Source of the DNA: a virus
IMG/VR virus record: IMGVR_UViG_3300047557_000972
Location: 1-44,501 of that record
DNA: 44,501 nucleotides
Strand: one strand, 5' to 3'
This document shows positions 26,940-34,912 of this stretch, piece by piece. The position numbers and the translations under genes were made by a program. The notes below the pieces were generated by a model. It was not told the DNA's origin, did no database searches, and worked only from the letters and a program-made list of their open reading frames with translations. Position 1 is the stretch's first letter; each line of letters starts with the position of its first letter.

Positions 26940-27145
26940 GCGGCGGCAGCGTGACACTACCCGCTGACGTTGCCCGCTGCGAAGGGCGTGAGGCTGATCA
27001 CCCATACTACAGGGAGTGTGAGCACTGCCTGAGGCGGACCAGTCCCCCGCACGAGCGGTCTGACTGGCTCGCGCTTCCGGTCTGGATCATTGGCTGGGGC
27101 GGGCACGGGGAATGTCCTGACAAGATAGATGAGCGACCTGATTGA
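26936..27145 (+). CDS. Zinc-binding mini-protein overlapping terL
   Basis: 69 aa from ATG 26936 (ATGA overlap); the frame opens further upstream only as a shadow. VARCEGREADHPYYRECEHC, then LRRTSPPHERSDWLALPVWI and HGECPDKIDERPD: two Cys pairs (C12, C27/C30, C60) consistent with a small zinc fold of a type common in phage mini-proteins (ARCxG......C..C.RR.SP). It overlaps the terminase large subunit start by 17 nt. Confidence 0.65.
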   Translation: MSGGSVTLPADVARCEGREADHPYYRECEHCLRRTSPPHERSDWLALPVWIIGWGGHGECPDKIDERPD

Positions 27146-29369
27146 AGCGCTGAAGGACCCGAAGGTCCAGGCGCAACTGAAGGCTCTGCCGCCAGAGAAG
27201 CGGCTGGCTTACCTTTGGCGTGCCAAGTGGGTGGAGACGGCCCACAAGCACCAGATCGTTCCGAAGGGGGACTGGTCCATCTGGCTGATGCTGGCAGGCC
27301 GGGGGGCGGGCAAGACCCGTACTGCTGCTGAGCAGATCGGCTGGTGGGCCTGGACGGAGCCTGAGACCCGCTGGCTGGTTGCGGCCCCGACCAGTGCGGA
27401 TGTGAGGGGTACGTGCTTCGAGGGCGACTCGGGGCTGCTGAACGTCATCCCGAAGGCTCTGGTGGCGGACTACAACAAGGCGTACCACGAGCTACGGCTG
27501 ATCAACGGGAGCCTGATCAAGGGCATCCCTGCGAGCGAGCCTGAGCGGTTCCGTGGGCCTCAGTTCCACGGGGCTTGGTGCTGCATCCCAGGCACGATGA
27601 TCGCCACACCAAGCGGAGACCGGCCCATTGAGATGTTGACGGCTGGCGATACCGTGCTGACCCGACACGGCCCCAGGCGAGTATTGGCAGCAGGGCCATC
27701 TGGAAACCCTGCCGACCTAGTGCGTCTGGATTGTGGTGATACGAGCTTGACTGTCACGGAGGATCATCCGATACTGGTTGGAGACCAGTGGGTGGCTGCT
27801 GGTGACATCAAGGAAGGGGCCTATGTATGGGCTACAAATACATCGGCAGTAGATATGCCCACCGCGTCATTTACGAGCGGCATTACGGGTCGATACCAGC
27901 AGGCTGGGTGGTTCATCACCGGGATGGCGATCCTGGCAACAATGACCCGGCAAACCTTGAAGCGATGCCTCGGTCTGAGCACAACAGAATGCACCAGACT
28001 GGCAAGCCGACCACGGAAGCTCAGAAAGCTGCTGCTGCGGCGACTCTGGCCAAACTACGAACTCCGAAGGATGGTCGCTGCCTGCAATGCAGCGCCGAGT
28101 TTGTCTCCTTGGCCGCTGGGAGGGTGGGTGCCTTCTGTTCGCGGCCTTGTTTGGAGCGGTGGCGGCGCAACGTATTCAAGCCGGAGCAGCGCACCTGTGA
28201 TGTCTGCAAGGGCCTGTATATGGCCAAGAAGCGGTTCCAGCGATATTGCAGCAAGGTCTGCAACAACCGATCACAAGTACGGACCTATCGCAGTCAGCCC
28301 ACTGGAGGTACGCCGCGTCGAACGCTTGCCCAACGCGAAGACATACAACCTAACGGTTGAGGGCGAGCACGAGTTCATCGCAAACGGCATTGTTGTCCAC
28401 AACTGCGACGAGCTTGCAGCCTGGGAGTACATCCAGGACGCCTGGGATCAGATCCAGTTCGGCGTCCGACTGGGGACGAAGACCCGCACGATCATCACGA
28501 CGACCCCCAGGCCGAAAGACCTGATCCTGGAGTTGATCAACCGTGATGGGGACGATGTGGTGGTAACGACTGCCAGCACGTATGAGAATCTGGCTAACCT
28601 GTCAGATAACTTCAGACGGCAGATATTGCAGTATGAGGGGACGAAACTAGGCCGGCAGGAGATATACGCGGAGATTATTGACCCTGAGGAGGGGGGTATC
28701 GTCAAGCGTGAGTGGTTTAAGTTATGGCCTGCAGGGAAGGCGTTCCCCAAGTTCGAGTACATCATTCAGTCGTATGACTGCGCGACCTCTGAGAAGGTTA
28801 TGAACGATCCTACGGCCAGTGGTACGTGGGGGGTATTCAAACCTCAGGATGGGCCGATGTCTGTGATGCTGATTGACTGCTGGCAGGAGCGGATGCAGTA
28901 CCCGGACCTGAGGCCGAAGGTGATCGAGGAGTACGACACGGTCTTCGGTGAGGGGAAGGACAAGAAGCGGGTGGACCTGATCCTGATCGAGGACAAGAGC
29001 GCGGGGATCAGTCTTATACAAGACCTGCAGAGAGCACATCTGCCGGTGAGGGCGTACAACCCTGGCAAGGCGGACAAGGTGCAGAGGCTGAACATTGTCT
29101 CGAACATCATCGCCCGGGGCAGGGTGTGGATACCTGAGTCGGATCGTAGGAAGGGATATGTGAAGGACTGGGCGGAGGGATGCGTGTCCCAGATCTGCAG
29201 CTTTCCTGAGACGACTCACGACGACTTCGTGGATATGACCACACAGGCGCTGAGGTTTCTCAGGGACTCTGGGTGGTTGGAGATTGATCCCCCGCCTGAG
29301 GATGACTGGGATGAGGATGACTTCGTGGACAGCGGGAAGGTCAGGAGGGAGAACCCCTATGCTCAATAA
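27129..29369 (+). CDS. terL: Terminase large subunit precursor containing an intein
   Basis: 746-aa precursor. Extein N-part: Walker A AGRGAGKT (56-63), adenine-motif-like LVAAPTSADVRGTC, coupling region FRGPQFHGAW. The Walker B motif GAWCDELAAW is split: residues 151-425 are an intein, and C426 is the +1 residue. C-part: motif III IITTTPRP, nuclease acids in QSYDCATSEK (about 548), LILIEDKSAG (about 620) and TTHDDFVDMTTQ (about 697). After splicing the protein would be 471 aa, a normal TerL length. It hydrolyses ATP to pump DNA into the prohead and cuts concatemers. Activity should need intein removal because the catalytic DE pair is interrupted. Confidence 0.93.
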   Translation: MSDLIEALKDPKVQAQLKALPPEKRLAYLWRAKWVETAHKHQIVPKGDWSIWLMLAGRGAGKTRTAAEQIGWWAWTEPETRWLVAAPTSADVRGTCFEGDSGLLNVIPKALVADYNKAYHELRLINGSLIKGIPASEPERFRGPQFHGAWCCIPGTMIATPSGDRPIEMLTAGDTVLTRHGPRRVLAAGPSGNPADLVRLDCGDTSLTVTEDHPILVGDQWVAAGDIKEGAYVWATNTSAVDMPTASFTSGITGRYQQAGWFITGMAILATMTRQTLKRCLGLSTTECTRLASRPRKLRKLLLRRLWPNYELRRMVAACNAAPSLSPWPLGGWVPSVRGLVWSGGGATYSSRSSAPVMSARACIWPRSGSSDIAARSATTDHKYGPIAVSPLEVRRVERLPNAKTYNLTVEGEHEFIANGIVVHNCDELAAWEYIQDAWDQIQFGVRLGTKTRTIITTTPRPKDLILELINRDGDDVVVTTASTYENLANLSDNFRRQILQYEGTKLGRQEIYAEIIDPEEGGIVKREWFKLWPAGKAFPKFEYIIQSYDCATSEKVMNDPTASGTWGVFKPQDGPMSVMLIDCWQERMQYPDLRPKVIEEYDTVFGEGKDKKRVDLILIEDKSAGISLIQDLQRAHLPVRAYNPGKADKVQRLNIVSNIIARGRVWIPESDRRKGYVKDWAEGCVSQICSFPETTHDDFVDMTTQALRFLRDSGWLEIDPPPEDDWDEDDFVDSGKVRRENPYAQ
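27579..28403 (+). mobile_element. Intein in the Walker B motif of TerL
   Basis: 275 codons. Block A CCIPGTMIATPSGDRPIEML starts with the catalytic Cys; block B is LTVTEDHPILVGDQWVAAGD with the T..H pair; blocks F and G are AKTYNLTVEGEHEFIANGIV followed by VHN and a Cys in the extein. Taking the first of the two Cys as residue 1 restores GAWCDELAAW exactly. The region between blocks B and F (about residues 233-400 of the precursor) reads as unstructured nonsense in this frame because it overlaps an HNH gene in another frame. All splicing residues look intact. Confidence 0.93.
27827..28360 (+). CDS. HNH homing endonuclease nested out of frame in the intein
   Basis: 177 aa in the -1 frame relative to TerL. 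ATG 27827; this frame has a stop at 27803 just before, and AAGGAAGGGG (27810-27819) could act as ribosome site. HRVIYERHYGSIPAGWVVHH, RDGDPGNNDPANLEAMPRSE, HNRMH form an HNH-3 nuclease core. Then come two zinc-finger-like units, CLQCSAEF...FCSRPC and RTCDVCKGLYMAKKRFQRYC...VC. These finger/HNH combinations are typical of phage homing endonucleases, which cut intein-free target genes and spread the element. Its last 20 or so codons overlap the intein C-terminal splicing blocks. Confidence 0.85.
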   Translation: MGYKYIGSRYAHRVIYERHYGSIPAGWVVHHRDGDPGNNDPANLEAMPRSEHNRMHQTGKPTTEAQKAAAAATLAKLRTPKDGRCLQCSAEFVSLAAGRVGAFCSRPCLERWRRNVFKPEQRTCDVCKGLYMAKKRFQRYCSKVCNNRSQVRTYRSQPTGGTPRRTLAQREDIQPNG

Positions 29370-29373
29370 GGGG

Positions 29374-29401
29374 TTGCGCTCCAGCCGCTGCTGTGTATAA
29401 T
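29374..29401 (+). promoter_or_regulatory. Strong promoter of the noncoding RNA after terL
   Basis: TTGCGC (29374-29379), 16-nt spacer, TATAAT (29396-29401, consensus). Starts 4 nt after the terL stop. Transcription would begin at about 29408 and meet the terminator at 29556. It is the only exact TATAAT consensus box I noted among the promoters of the window. Confidence 0.75.
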
Positions 29402-29407
29402 GCTGGC

Positions 29408-29556
29408 ATCTATCGGGGTGGCACCCGGTAGTAGCACTCGTAGTGCGAATACCGAACCCATTGGGGAGCGGGCTTCGTCAAAGCGCATGGAAGGGCTACG
29501 AGACCGACCATGCTGCGGCAGCCAAGCCTAAAGCTCGTTCCCCAATGGGTTTTTTG
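29408..29556 (+). ncRNA. Stand-alone structured RNA of about 150 nt, family unknown
   Basis: Bounded by the promoter at 29374 and a T-run (29550-29555). The main stem pairs 29455-29475 with 29531-29551: 21 consecutive pairs, two of them G-U, so the terminator stem also closes the RNA. Inside is a second stem, GCATGG (29485-29490) with CCATGC (29508-29513) extended by two pairs past a bulge, with a 17-nt loop whose GGCT can reach AGCC outside (possible pseudoknot). The 5' part has hairpin TATCGGG/CCCGGTA (29411-29430) and hairpin GCACT/AGTGC (29434-29446); CGGTA (29426-29430) can instead pair with TACCG (29450-29454). No coding signal fits. It resembles long-stem phage RNAs, but I cannot name a family. 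Confidence 0.75.
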
Positions 29557-29848
29557 CTTTCTGCCTGCCCGTCAGGGCGCGTTAGCACTGGGCCTGCATG
29601 GGCTGCACCCAAGAAACACCGGCCTTCCTCCACCCGGAAGCGAGCCGACCAGCCTGTCAGCGAGGGACTGGGGAAGATGCGGGGGCAAGTGGTGAGACAA
29701 ACCCCGCATCGAGTGAATCGCTGCCTCATGGGTACTCTGGGCGGGCTGCTAGACGGCCCTGCCGGGAGAGGTGAACAGCCGGGGCTGTCACCCTTGGGGA
29801 TCTATTGGACTTGACCGCTCATCAAAGTTATGATCTGTCCATCTGAAC
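29557..29848 (+). other. Noncoding stretch with strong hairpins before the polyvalent protein gene
   Basis: 292 nt with no gene I can support; the frames across it are low-complexity shadows. Structure is dense: GCCC/GGGC near 29567, GATGCGGGG (29676-29684) with CCCCGCATC (29702-29710), GGGC...GCCC near 29741-29758, and GGTG-ACAGC (29770-29779) with GCTGT-CACC (29784-29792). It could be a second structured RNA, a long 5' leader or the packaging site region next to terL. Confidence 0.5.
29805..29834 (+). promoter_or_regulatory. Possible promoter for the polyvalent protein gene
   Basis: TTGGAC (29805-29810), 18-nt spacer, TATGAT (29829-29834). A start at about 29841 would leave only a few bases before ATG 29849 and no ribosome site, so leaderless translation or the second start (29864) would have to be used. 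Weak evidence, boxes only. Confidence 0.4.
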
Positions 29849-32800
29849 ATGGCGGATCGTGTAATGGATGACGCCGAATACCTACGCAGGCTTGAGAAGC
29901 TGCGTCCTCGGGCTGGTAAGCGTGCCCCGCTGGAAACTCCTCTTCCTGGCTCGTCGGTGCTGGATGTGCCTGTTGGCGGAACGAAGAGGATTCCGGACAC
30001 TGTACTGCGTCGGCGTCCTGAGCCAGAAGACACGATCACGGGGCTGAATCCCTCGATGGCGCAGAGGCACGCCGAGAAGATTGAGCAGTTCCTGTCCCCC
30101 AGGAGTGCTGGCCCGAAGCTGGTGGATAGCGCCCAGAGGGAATTGGCCAAGATGGCATCCCAGACCCTTATGGGCGGAGACAAGAGCCTGCTTCCGTTTG
30201 GGATTGGCTTACAAGAAGCTGTCCCCTTCTCCCCTTATGTGGCCGAGGAGTCGGGCGCAATGGTCCGGGAAGGGGTAGAGACTGGCAGCCCCCTGACGAC
30301 GGGCCTGGGGCTGGGTTTAGGGGCCCTACAAGCCTTTCCTGTGTTCAAGCCTATAGCCAAAGGCGTGCAGGCCGGTGCGATGGCAGCAGGCCGTGCTGGA
30401 GAGCGTCTGGCGGAACGGGTGGTGCCGCAGGTCATGGAGCGAGGGGGCCTGGGCGCTGAGATGCTGGGGGCTATGGGGACTGGTTCCCAATCTGCCGTGA
30501 TCAAGCCTAAGGGTCTTAGTGGGAACTGGTTGGCAAATGAGGTTGAGCGGCAGACAAAAGGGCTGAAGGTCCAGCCCGATCCCCCGTATGCCCCATACAA
30601 CGAACAAGAGCTTCAGCAGGCGGCTGCTCGTGGGTTTGGCCCTTATGACCCAGAAACTGGTGTGATGCCTGCCCCAGTAAATCCCGAGAATGCGGCTCTG
30701 AACAACTGGGTAGACAAGAAGCTCACCAAGTACATCAAGGCCGAGATGGGCACGCCGGAGGATCCGGTGCGTGCTCTTGCAGAGCGCGGTGTTCTGCACT
30801 ACGAGCCCATGGCGCTAGATTTTGGCGCGGTGCCTTCTCAGTTGATGAAGAAGCGTGCCAGTGCAGGTATGCAGGCTCCCCTGATGGGAAAGAGCGATCT
30901 GGCCCGCAGATGGGAGATGATGGCGGACAAGGCAATTGATCCCAGCCGAGCCCGTGATTGGACTGGTGCGCCAGAATGGGGATTAATTGATGAAGCAGTA
31001 CAAAGTGAAAATCCTTGGTTAACCAAAGTTCCAGAGGACACGCCTGTATATACAATTAAAGGGATATCGTTTTTTAATCAAGACGCCGGGTTTGATCACC
31101 TTCTCGATGAACTGAAGAACGCCGTTCGTGCTGATTCTGATTTGCCTGCTCACCTGAGGTACAGCCCCAAGGATCTGGAGAAGGTCACAGTTCCCCAAGC
31201 GGTGGAGCGGGTTGCCAAGATCAACGAGTACCGCGCCAACAAGAAGGCTGAGGCCAACGCTGCTATTGCAAGGAACTCCGCGACCATTCCGGTCAAAGAG
31301 TATCCAGAAGCCAAGATGACTTGGGTTGAATTCCAGCCGCCCAAGATAGAGGCGTTGCCTGAGGATGTAACCCGCAGGCAAATGAGTGCGACTCAAGGTG
31401 GGTTTGACGTTCCTGGGATTGGTTTCGTTGCTGCCAAGTGGGATCCCAAGACTGGGCTAGATTGGGCGCAGGCAGAGAACGATGTAAGAAAGCTGCTGGG
31501 CAGGAAGCCTTTGAGTGAGGCCCTGGACTACGAAGGTGACCTGATGGGTCACTGTGCTGGCAGATACTGCGATGATGTTATATCGGGTAACTCTCGGATC
31601 TACAGCCTGCGAGATGAGAAGGGCAACCCTAAGGTAACCATCGAGGTTAAGCCTGGGCAAGTCAGAACAACTCATGAAGATATTGATGCAATAGGTAAGC
31701 AGGCCACAGAAGAGGCCAACAGCAAAAACTTTGCATCGACAACAGATTACGATTTGTTTTATTGGCCTAGAGTTCGAGAGTTGCAAATGCAACTGATTGA
31801 ACAGAAGCGTAAAACTATCGCCCCTCAGATTGTTCAGATTAAGGGTTCTGGCAAGAAAGACCCTGGACAGCGCATCAGGCCAGAGGATTCTCACCTGCTA
31901 CCGTTTATTCACGACTTTGTGAAGAGCGGCACTTGGAGCAGCGTGGCAGATCTTAAAAATGCTGGCATGACTCGTTTGGGAGATAAGTATGTGACTAATG
32001 AAGAAATTGCTCCATTAGTTGCTGAAGCGAGGAAGTTTATTGATGAGACGCCTGCTCTTGAGCAGCAGCGTCAGGCACAAAGGGCGTATGAAGCCTACAG
32101 AGGGCCAATTCCATCTCCGGAGTACACACAACTGCAAAAAGAGATTAACAAACAAGTTCATCCAGATATTCCCTATACATACAGTGAACTAAGATCAATT
32201 TTTGATGATCCTAATGCATATGATGAAGGTGCATTAGGAGACAACTTAGAGCGTGTTAATCAGTTGCGCAAGCTGTTTGGAGATGCCAATTACGCACAAG
32301 GCGGCTTCGTCCAAGACACTGATGCTCTAGTGCAGAAGCTCATCCAAAGCGGCCTGAGCGAAGAGGAAGCCCTGACCCAGGCTCTTCGTATGGCGGGAGC
32401 CAGGGAAGAGGCCAGGATGGCCGGTGGAGGCCTTGCGAAGGCTGCTGGCAAGACTCCTAAGAAGGCCAAGAAGGCCGCTGGAGGGCGTGTTGATGCACCC
32501 GAGGGAGCCGAAGACTTCATCGCTCAGGTGAAGCAACGCATGGCCGGATCCAAAGATAAAGAACGCGACATGACAAAGGCTGAAGGAGGCGCTGTGATTG
32601 AGCCACCAGTTGACCAGATGCGTTTGGAGATGATGGAGCGAGGCTACGCGGGCGGATCAATCGTCAAAAGATTGAAGCCGGGCAGTCAAGCTGCAAAAGG
32701 TGCCGGTCAAGCAAAGCAGTCAGTCCTGCCTCCTGAGAAGCCCAGGGAACTTACCGGGCTGTTGCGTCCTGATGTAGATCCTGTGCGCGGTCAAACCAGC

Positions 32801-34912
32801 CGGGAGCTTACGAGGGCTCAGAATAAGGCGTTGACTGACCAGCAGAAGGAAATGCTGGAGGGACTGAAGAAGAAGTTCCCTGACTTTGCCGCCTCGGTAA
32901 AGTTTATGACCCCCCAGGAGGTTGGGAAGATTCTGTCTAACCCGCAGGGTGTTCAAGAGGTCAATCGTCTGTTGGAACTGCTGCCCCAGGCCAAGCAATT
33001 GTCTAGCGTGGCCAAAGCTGGAGAGGCCAAAAGAGGTTGGTACCGGGCAAGCACGCAAGCCTTGATTGATGTGTTTGGCAACGATGCTCCCAGGTTTGCG
33101 ACCCTGCTTGCGTCTTTGTCTCCACAGACTTCAGTGGAGATGAATCTTCTGAACACCTTGAATGTTTGGAAGAACTGGACCGCTGCTGGAAGGCCTACTG
33201 ACCCTGCCAGGATCAAGCAGATCATGGGGCAGTCTGTTGCGGGAACAAAGGGCGAGCAATCTGTGCTTGACGCATGGACGAACAATGCAATCAGGTCTTT
33301 GACCGTTGCGGATCCTGCGAAGGTAACTCTATCGGGGCCGAAGGTTGATTCCTTCTTCCGCAACTTGGCGGACGATGTTTATCGGGTTACCAATGATGCA
33401 TGGATGGCCAGTGGCCTGGGGGTTGGGCAAGATCTGTTCAGCGGGGCACCTACGGCCCTGCAGATTGCCCGAGGTGACCCTGGCCTGACGCCTGGATACA
33501 TCGCTACCAGCGCTCGTATGCGAGAGGCTGGCCAGCAGGCAAATATGCTGCCTTCCGAGGCACAGGAGACCACTTGGTCGGTCTTCATGCCTCTGTATGA
33601 GATGCAGCGCAGTACGGGCATTCCTGCGCGAGACATTCTTCAAAGAGGTCTGCTGACGCCGCAGCAAATCAGGGGAACGCCTGACTTCTCCTCGTTGCTT
33701 CAAGATCCCAAGTACGGCTCGATCCTCCAGCAGGCTGGCTATGGTGAGAACTTGGCCGCGCTCAAGCCTTACCAGTGGTCTGATCCAAAGATGGACTTGT
33801 CGCTGGCTGATCAGCGTGAACTGGAAAAAGTTGCCGAGCGGTTGGAGGGGCTTAAGAGCAGCCGTGAGCGCGAGAGCAGGGCCAAGGTGTTTTCCATGCC
33901 CAGCGGTCGTCCGCAAAGTGGTTTTGCGTATGAGACACCGGAATACATTCCTGGAAGGGGTACTGGGCATTTGGAAGAACTGATTGACGTTCCGCTGGAG
34001 TCTCGTGAGTTCTTCAGTTCACGCGCTGCAAATGCGTTTAAGGATCTTCAAGGGCGCGATGTCTTGCAGCAGTCTCTTCAATTGCCGACCATTCAGACAA
34101 GATCCATGACGGGTGCGTTCAGGCCCCCAGGTGAAATTCCTTACGCCTCGGGCAGGCTTGGTGGTGAGACGATACCGGGCCGGCACCCGGTGGAAGTTCA
34201 GCCTGGGTTTGCCATGGGAGCCGAGGTTCCTATTACCAGTAACTTGGACATTCCCGAGCGAATCAAGCGCAAGCTGACGGCTGCGGCAGGTGTTCGTGGT
34301 GCCATGACGGCGCAACTTGGATCGCCATGGAACTTGCAGATACCCACCAAAAGAGGATCTGGTTTGTTTGTCCCGCTCGATAAGAAGGTTGCCCAGGAGA
34401 ATATGCAGCTATCTGGAGCGCTGATGGATCCAAACACGGAGGCGCTAGCAGATACTGGCAGGGGCGTTGCCATGCTGAACTGGGGCAGTAGACTATCTGA
34501 CGACGAAGCTAGAGCTATTGCGCAACGTCTTGGTGCTAATGACCTTGTGCGTACCAAAAATGTGAGTGATTACGTCGATTACAGTCCAGAGTGGAATCAA
34601 CCTCCAGGATCTGGTGCTGTTACACGTAAGATGTTGAGCCTTGTAGACGAGTTGAACAAAGCGGACATCGAAGCTCTAAGCAGGGCAACGCAAGAACCGG
34701 CAGGCAAACTGTATGAGTTGTACGAACAACTCAAGCGTACCCGTGGATACGCTACTCGCGAGGACTTGATGCATTTGCTCAAGACTCTGCGAGATAAGGG
34801 TATCCCCGGAGTTATCACAGGTCTTGCGGCTGGGGAGGCGTTTGCGGCTCCTCAAGAGAAGAAGGCTGCGGGTGGCCTCGCGAGCCTACAACGTAGAGCG
34901 GCCCACTATTGA
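29849..34912 (+). CDS. Large polyvalent virion/ejection protein
   Basis: 1,687 aa; no ribosome site before ATG 29849 and an alternative ATG at 29864. About residues 550-620 hold a PcfJ-like segment: SEALDYEGDLMGHCAGRYCD, then SRIYSLRDEKGNPKVTIE. Around residues 1000-1230 is a region typical of large polyvalent proteins (GWYRASTQALIDVFGNDAPR, LASLSPQTSVEMNLLNTLNV, WKNWTAAGRPTD). Several short Gly-Gly motifs (YAQGGFV, MAGGGLAK, KAEGGAV, YAGGSIV, KAAGGLASL) occur. Polyvalent proteins are thought to travel in the virion and act on entering the host; placement between terL and portal is consistent. Enzymatic role not established here. Confidence 0.8.
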   Translation: MADRVMDDAEYLRRLEKLRPRAGKRAPLETPLPGSSVLDVPVGGTKRIPDTVLRRRPEPEDTITGLNPSMAQRHAEKIEQFLSPRSAGPKLVDSAQRELAKMASQTLMGGDKSLLPFGIGLQEAVPFSPYVAEESGAMVREGVETGSPLTTGLGLGLGALQAFPVFKPIAKGVQAGAMAAGRAGERLAERVVPQVMERGGLGAEMLGAMGTGSQSAVIKPKGLSGNWLANEVERQTKGLKVQPDPPYAPYNEQELQQAAARGFGPYDPETGVMPAPVNPENAALNNWVDKKLTKYIKAEMGTPEDPVRALAERGVLHYEPMALDFGAVPSQLMKKRASAGMQAPLMGKSDLARRWEMMADKAIDPSRARDWTGAPEWGLIDEAVQSENPWLTKVPEDTPVYTIKGISFFNQDAGFDHLLDELKNAVRADSDLPAHLRYSPKDLEKVTVPQAVERVAKINEYRANKKAEANAAIARNSATIPVKEYPEAKMTWVEFQPPKIEALPEDVTRRQMSATQGGFDVPGIGFVAAKWDPKTGLDWAQAENDVRKLLGRKPLSEALDYEGDLMGHCAGRYCDDVISGNSRIYSLRDEKGNPKVTIEVKPGQVRTTHEDIDAIGKQATEEANSKNFASTTDYDLFYWPRVRELQMQLIEQKRKTIAPQIVQIKGSGKKDPGQRIRPEDSHLLPFIHDFVKSGTWSSVADLKNAGMTRLGDKYVTNEEIAPLVAEARKFIDETPALEQQRQAQRAYEAYRGPIPSPEYTQLQKEINKQVHPDIPYTYSELRSIFDDPNAYDEGALGDNLERVNQLRKLFGDANYAQGGFVQDTDALVQKLIQSGLSEEEALTQALRMAGAREEARMAGGGLAKAAGKTPKKAKKAAGGRVDAPEGAEDFIAQVKQRMAGSKDKERDMTKAEGGAVIEPPVDQMRLEMMERGYAGGSIVKRLKPGSQAAKGAGQAKQSVLPPEKPRELTGLLRPDVDPVRGQTSRELTRAQNKALTDQQKEMLEGLKKKFPDFAASVKFMTPQEVGKILSNPQGVQEVNRLLELLPQAKQLSSVAKAGEAKRGWYRASTQALIDVFGNDAPRFATLLASLSPQTSVEMNLLNTLNVWKNWTAAGRPTDPARIKQIMGQSVAGTKGEQSVLDAWTNNAIRSLTVADPAKVTLSGPKVDSFFRNLADDVYRVTNDAWMASGLGVGQDLFSGAPTALQIARGDPGLTPGYIATSARMREAGQQANMLPSEAQETTWSVFMPLYEMQRSTGIPARDILQRGLLTPQQIRGTPDFSSLLQDPKYGSILQQAGYGENLAALKPYQWSDPKMDLSLADQRELEKVAERLEGLKSSRERESRAKVFSMPSGRPQSGFAYETPEYIPGRGTGHLEELIDVPLESREFFSSRAANAFKDLQGRDVLQQSLQLPTIQTRSMTGAFRPPGEIPYASGRLGGETIPGRHPVEVQPGFAMGAEVPITSNLDIPERIKRKLTAAAGVRGAMTAQLGSPWNLQIPTKRGSGLFVPLDKKVAQENMQLSGALMDPNTEALADTGRGVAMLNWGSRLSDDEARAIAQRLGANDLVRTKNVSDYVDYSPEWNQPPGSGAVTRKMLSLVDELNKADIEALSRATQEPAGKLYELYEQLKRTRGYATREDLMHLLKTLRDKGIPGVITGLAAGEAFAAPQEKKAAGGLASLQRRAAHY

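Follow-up and report, generated by a model that had tools for sequence, protein, structure and literature searches.

Inteins are usually described as protein elements in which the nuclease is either an in-frame domain or missing. The window analysed here, a virus record of 44,501 bases (IMG/VR record IMGVR_UViG_3300047557_000972), contains a gene for the terminase large subunit (TerL) that carries an intein, and overlapping the intein is a second gene, for an HNH homing endonuclease, in the −1 frame. We consider it highly probable that the intein is a mobile one, inserted in the Walker B region of TerL, and that its homing endonuclease is encoded independently, by an out-of-frame gene nested where inteins usually carry their endonuclease. 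Among published cases, the ShiLan domain (Arsenault, Gosselin and Gogarten 2025, PMC11855218), an out-of-frame HNH in a stop-free insertion, comes closest. The two have in common an insertion that is stop-free in the host frame, an HNH and zinc-finger nuclease in the third frame, an internal start codon and a patchy distribution. However, the ShiLan domain has neither the splicing motifs nor the fold of an intein and is thought to stay in the protein, whereas the host frame in the window holds a complete Hint domain, with both halves intact. Canonical full-length inteins carry a LAGLIDADG or HNH endonuclease in frame; in-frame HNH_3 inteins are known, including that of the cyanophage CL131 dCTP deaminase (PMC6293099), and one of them splices. 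As in these inteins, the Hint domain in the window is split at the standard site, with the nuclease between blocks B and F. The endonuclease insertion site of inteins is generally conserved (PMC6801210), and the nested HNH gene starts at the matching place between the Hint halves. The difference is that here the intein protein does not include the nuclease: no endonuclease is encoded in the reading frame of the intein, and the HNH has a gene of its own in the −1 frame.

The 'fractured genes' of Dassa et al. 2009, which PMC8228797 cites, are reportedly split inteins with a homing endonuclease gene between their halves. They resemble the present locus in having an independently translated nuclease gene between two intein halves, but the window intein and TerL are contiguous in one open reading frame (ORF). 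Probable split forms are seen only in relatives (loci L154, L156, L160, L171, L187 and L210), with host gene and intein in two ORFs in L160, L171, L210 and others. A group I intron with its own HNH ORF (the I-HmuI type) likewise has a separate nuclease ORF inside a self-removing element; in the window, in contrast, removal would take place at the protein level and the host frame is open. A scan of positions 27100-29850 against Rfam gave no group I intron match up to an E-value of 5, and a group I intron was rejected on this basis. Free-standing HNH genes adjacent to terL belong to the same HNH and Cys4-finger family as the window HNH, but lie outside any intein and have no second frame to keep open. 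In the literature searched, we found no account of an intein whose endonuclease is encoded in a different frame. A preprint on actinobacteriophage inteins of 'non-canonical architecture' (Gosselin et al. 2025, bioRxiv 10.1101/2025.01.02.630785) is cited in PMC11855218 for overlapping reading frames in actinobacteriophages, so that some overlap with the class described here is possible.

The terL gene (27129..29369; this and all other features below are on the + strand) is a single ORF of 746 codons with no interruption, and matches PHROG 38, terminase large subunit (3e-27). The Pfam domains Terminase_6N and Terminase_6C are split by matches to the Pfam domains Hint_2 and Intein_splicing and to TIGR01443 (intein_Cterm). 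These matches bear out the sequence-only reading that the TerL frame has complete intein blocks at both ends. The N-extein (27129..27578) ends in FRGPQFHGAW. The intein (27579..28403, 275 codons) begins with the first Cys of CCIPGTMI and ends with His-Asn; the +1 Cys (28404-28406) opens the C-extein (28404..29366), which starts CDELAAW. The N-terminal splicing domain (27579..27842, residues 1-88) contains block A, CCIPGTMI, and block B, TVTEDHPI, and the C-terminal splicing domain (28278..28403) contains blocks F and G, RVERLPNAKTYNLTVEGEHEFIANGIVVHN, with a TIGR01443 match of 1e-8. Between them is a linker (27843..28277, residues 89-233) that is open in the intein frame but not conserved in sequence. 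In an alignment of 22 inteins the Class 1 nucleophile Cys1 is invariant, the block B motif and the C-terminal VVHN/C (stroke marking the junction) are present, and the splicing halves are far better conserved than the linker. Removal of the intein would leave an intact host protein, as uninterrupted homologues encode exactly FHGAW/CDELAAW (junction GAW/CDELAAW). AlphaFold (AF2, with the 22 aligned inteins) predicts the Hint fold expected of a Class 1 intein, with a predicted local distance difference test score (pLDDT) of 94-97 over residues 1-80 and 92-97 from residue 241, and an unstructured linker (pLDDT about 25-41). The best Foldseek matches of this model are intein splicing domains (Mtu RecA and gp41-1).

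The nested gene (27827..28360; 177 codons plus TGA at 28358-28360) matches Pfam HNH_3 (4e-20) and PHROG 15471 (8e-24). Its HNH core (27851..27988, residues 9-54) retains the catalytic and metal-binding residues of I-HmuI-like HNH_3 proteins: H30, H31, D33, N38, N39, N43 and H52 are invariant, as is H56 just beyond the core. Two Cys4 zinc-finger units follow in the same frame, at 28079..28150 (C85, C88, C104, C108) and 28196..28261 (C124, C127, C141, C145). With all eight cysteines present, the earlier assignment of this frame as an HNH core with two Cys4 units is upheld. The AlphaFold model of this frame is folded (mean pLDDT 81), and the nearest solved structure is that of the homing endonuclease I-HmuI (1U3E; profile E 2.5e-4). 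No second gene with HNH_3 and Cys4 units is present in the whole record.

To place this locus among its relatives, we used the HNH and TerL, and then an alignment of HNHs, as queries against viral contigs, and also searched bacterial and archaeal genomes. Frames were classified with profiles of both intein halves, strict block scores defining a set of 79 loci; the locus counts given here (90, 87, 85, 79 and 78) include the window itself. The first point to note is that, among 90 distinct loci with intein blocks flanking the HNH on both sides, the HNH is in the −1 frame in 87, and in 85 of these the intein frame is stop-free. The two −1 loci outside the open set (L156 and L160) score lower for the intein and appear to be split. 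In the strict set, 78 of 79 loci have the HNH in the −1 frame with a stop-free intein frame, one has it in frame, and all intein lengths are multiples of three. At locus L177 the HNH is in frame with the intein. Two extra nested loci were found by eye (L142 and L186) and two more came from phage records (L209 and L214); L185 was left unjudged owing to masked bases. The −1 layout is present in the complete genomes of Tetrasphaera phage TJE1, Acinetobacter phage Highwayman and Rhodobacteraceae phage LS06-2018-MD07, as well as in a faecal phage contig and in contigs assigned to Thermoplasmatales, Nitrospiraceae and Gammaproteobacteria. The sequence-only reading had offered either a gene within a gene or a retained paired frameshift, and had named loss of the overlap in homologues as refuting evidence; the overlap is kept in all but one of the strict loci, and this check did not refute the reading. 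The gene-in-gene architecture is thus supported, but it is not unique to the window phage. On the sequences surveyed, an out-of-frame HNH in a TerL intein is a widespread class centred on TerL.

Within TerL, the intein site of the window's clade is the Walker B (ATPase) region. Placement by flanks puts most of the nested loci in TerL inteins at the nuclease motif before xDALRY, and a few at other sites. Two out-of-frame-HNH inteins, one at the Walker B site and one at the nuclease motif, occur in each TerL gene of L013, L017 and L043 (also L023 and L028). A third TerL intein site, at residue ∼60 beside the Walker A motif, is seen in L026, L027, L033, L059, L077 and L079. The intein at this last site in sister phages served as a control: it is canonical, with an in-frame endonuclease of the DOD-like type, and has 3-27 stops in the other frames. 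In L139 (2500-3650) the intein frame is open across an HNH in the +1 frame, which is likely an independent nesting.

How unexpected is the open intein frame? The chance of it had been put at well under 1%. For the window sequence alone this stands under a composition model (0.35%), but not when the HNH protein and its codon usage are kept constant, where the frame is open by chance in 5–6% of cases. The comparison across relatives is in our view decisive for maintained openness of the intein frame. In 56 loci picked among the open ones and thinned at 60% HNH identity (all HNHs <60% identical in amino acids), there are 0 intein-frame stops in 10,247 codons, against 99 (codons permuted) to 217 (extein codon usage) expected; the third frame of the same stretches has 843. 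The product of the per-locus probabilities, about 1e-65 to 1e-115, is indicative only, because of shared ancestry. A chance ORF is rejected by this comparative codon-null test, in spite of the 5–6% for the window sequence alone. Among the free-standing relatives checked, the corresponding frame has 0 stops in L127 and 1-14 in the others; L142 and L186, which were on that list, turned out to be the nested loci mentioned above.

The overlap constrains its two products unequally: the nuclease is under constraint as a protein, whereas all that is required of the intein linker is that it stay translatable. This follows from the ratio of nonsynonymous to synonymous substitution rates (dN/dS) in the close clade, which is about 0.1 in the HNH frame, indicating purifying selection, and about 1-2 in the intein frame (about 1-5 in the third frame) over the same bases, with substitutions mostly at HNH third positions, a pattern like that in the TerL exteins. 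Between divergent pairs, intein-frame identity is near that of a synonymous-shuffle null (for the window, z is 0.8-3.6 in every comparison except that with its nearest relative), which indicates that only the openness of the linker is kept; selection on its amino-acid sequence was rejected on these grounds. The proposed comparison of dN/dS in both frames therefore supports conservation of the HNH, and for the intein frame openness only.

The nuclease is probably translated separately from its own start codon, to judge from the placing of that codon. The ATG (27827..27829) keeps its position in all site-b relatives (GTG in L040); it lies at intein nucleotide 249/252 in every site-b homologue and mostly at nucleotides 250-290 elsewhere, and is ATG in 81 of 85 loci. 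This fixed place supports independent translation, and a stop in the HNH frame ≤4 codons upstream of the start, present in 34 of the 85 loci, argues against a frameshift fusion. The sequence-only reading had suggested expression from an internal site with the possible ribosome-binding sequence AAGGAAGGGG (27810..27819). The internal start fares well; the specific Shine–Dalgarno (SD) sequence does so only in part, since it is kept in the near clade, where it overlaps the codons for intein residues K-E-G, and is lost in several relatives. SD-like motifs are found at the HNH start in 49 of 85 loci against 36 expected from the intein codons, a count with a slight bias, as SD served to pick the best start. 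Among the SD-less loci, 11 of 36 have a TATAAT-like hexamer ending 5-7 nucleotides before the HNH ATG, against 4.3 expected, and none of the SD loci has one. In L111, L112, L113, L124, L153, L155, L161 and L168, all SD-less, the hexamer, often as TGnTATAAT, ends 6 nucleotides before the ATG. These hexamers inside the intein are possible leaderless promoters, and we offer them as a lead only.

Closely related TerL genes include both empty and occupied alleles. The empty alleles L081-L083, whose exteins are 89–90% identical to those of the window, have exact junctions, reading FHGAW/CDELAAW with no gap. HNH was not detected in the flanking DNA examined of the empty loci L045-L098; it is present with the element and absent from the examined DNA of empty alleles, and so travels with the intein, as expected of a homing endonuclease. 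Loci L044 and L020 are mini-inteins that have lost the HNH and retained the frame, as would fit an intein able to do without the nuclease. The empty alleles and mini-inteins are together consistent with a mobile element, and the HNH probably spreads the intein. Free-standing HNH relatives adjoin terL, for example in Exiguobacterium phage vB_EauM-23, Acinetobacter phage BP10 and Pseudomonas phage FBPa53, where a nuclease with its target in terL or close by would be expected.

From these data we suggest the following scheme. Ribosomes translating TerL would continue in frame across the intein, whose stop-free and disordered linker would allow the Hint halves to come together as one fold and splice. 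Initiation at the internal ATG (27827) would give a free HNH and Cys4-finger nuclease. During co-infection this would cut terL alleles that lack the intein, at the insertion site or close to it, and repair would copy intein and nuclease together.

Other explanations need to be weighed against this nested-gene scheme. The overlap might be an artefact, an ordinary in-frame HNH domain shifted by two indels, whether compensated frameshifts or sequencing error. In-frame HNH_3 inteins do exist (that of CL131, PMC6293099, and L177), and a GGGG run (27816-27819) lies near the frame junction. However, the −1 relation recurs throughout the strict set, in independent assemblies and complete phage genomes, the start codon is conserved at the junction, and no intein length departs from a multiple of three. 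Conservation of the −1 relation led us to reject sequencing error or a paired indel for the whole class, and for the window we find this explanation scarcely credible. A second possibility, which we judge very unlikely, is that ribosomes translating the intein N-half slip by −1 into the HNH frame; this would yield a Hint-N/HNH fusion and no free nuclease. The well-supported nested loci do always have the HNH in the −1 frame, which such a shift could reach, but the upstream stops in 34 loci confine any slip to a short gap, positions 27800-27830 contain no X XXY YYZ heptamer, free-standing relatives own their starts, and L139 uses the +1 frame.

Retention of the HNH as a packaging nuclease that partners TerL, and not for homing, would account for the finding that nearly all nested copies are in TerL and that free-standing relatives flank terL; the HNH of HK97 cooperates with terminase in cos cleavage (PMC10448857). 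Yet close relatives with TerL 80–90% identical have no intein and no detectable nearby HNH, the mini-inteins have lost theirs, and the nearest solved relative is the homing enzyme I-HmuI, so we judge this explanation unlikely. Splicing of the window intein is predicted only, and the element might instead be a tolerated in-frame insertion that no longer splices and harbours an HNH out of frame, the state suggested for the ShiLan domain. We regard this as highly improbable: no splicing residue has been lost, both halves are predicted with high pLDDT to form the Hint fold and are far more conserved than the linker, and the insertion interrupts a conserved ATPase motif of TerL that phages require for packaging. 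Some points do weigh against the nested-gene scheme itself. Splicing, HNH expression, nuclease activity and homing are what we infer; Foldseek gives weak backing to the HNH model (best match I-HmuI, E 0.09); and a recognisable SD is absent at the chosen HNH start in 36 of 85 loci, where initiation needs another route. In addition, the survey is anchored on a single HNH subfamily, and so makes no statement on HNH inteins in general.

The history of the nested layout appears complex. The HNH tree, which is poorly resolved, does not separate nested, free-standing and split loci; it requires about 10 changes of the nested state, of which well-supported (starred) branches force 3. HNH and Hint distances are strongly correlated overall (Mantel r 0.89), but the correlation drops to r 0.23 among distant pairs. 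Given this fall and the changes of state, co-divergence was rejected as proof of a single origin, which is not supported on this poorly resolved tree. In the loci listed above as split (L210 being Vibrio phage 1.238.A), the HNH lies between two intein halves, the N-half ending at a stop; these are probable split inteins, possibly derived from nested ones. Taking these observations jointly, we tentatively propose, while stopping a little short of calling it probable, that out-of-frame nesting is the normal mode of the HNH and Cys4-finger family in the TerL inteins of phages of many hosts, and an evolutionary bridge from free-standing through nested to split forms. A free-standing nuclease gene adjacent to terL would nest, unfused, in an intein linker; later, stops arising in that linker would break the contiguous intein in two, leaving a split intein whose halves flank the nuclease gene.

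Downstream of terL, a strongly structured non-coding stretch follows directly (29395-29565; −81.6 kcal/mol, z −5.7), with TATAAT near 29396 and a U-run at its end. No Rfam family matched it. A 70% identical copy lies after terL in L096 (3420-3589), with 6 compensatory pairs between the two, and the stretch is a possible small RNA. Beyond it (29849-34912) is an ORF of 1687 residues with a DUF7178 match and a borderline PcfJ match.

The recurrence of the same −1 layout in dozens of unrelated phages indicates a real kind of intein, and not a sequencing slip. It is also one that has been overlooked: the class escapes annotation, since the host ORF is called and the one overlapping it dropped, and in TJE1, Highwayman and LS06-2018-MD07 the stretch is labelled 'terminase large subunit' and nothing else. 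The nuclease here is a gene that overlaps the intein, as in introns, and as a result nuclease level and splicing can evolve apart. The class also offers many natural examples of overlapping genes where the sole constraint on one frame is that it stay open, and its nested layout suggests a testable route to split inteins.
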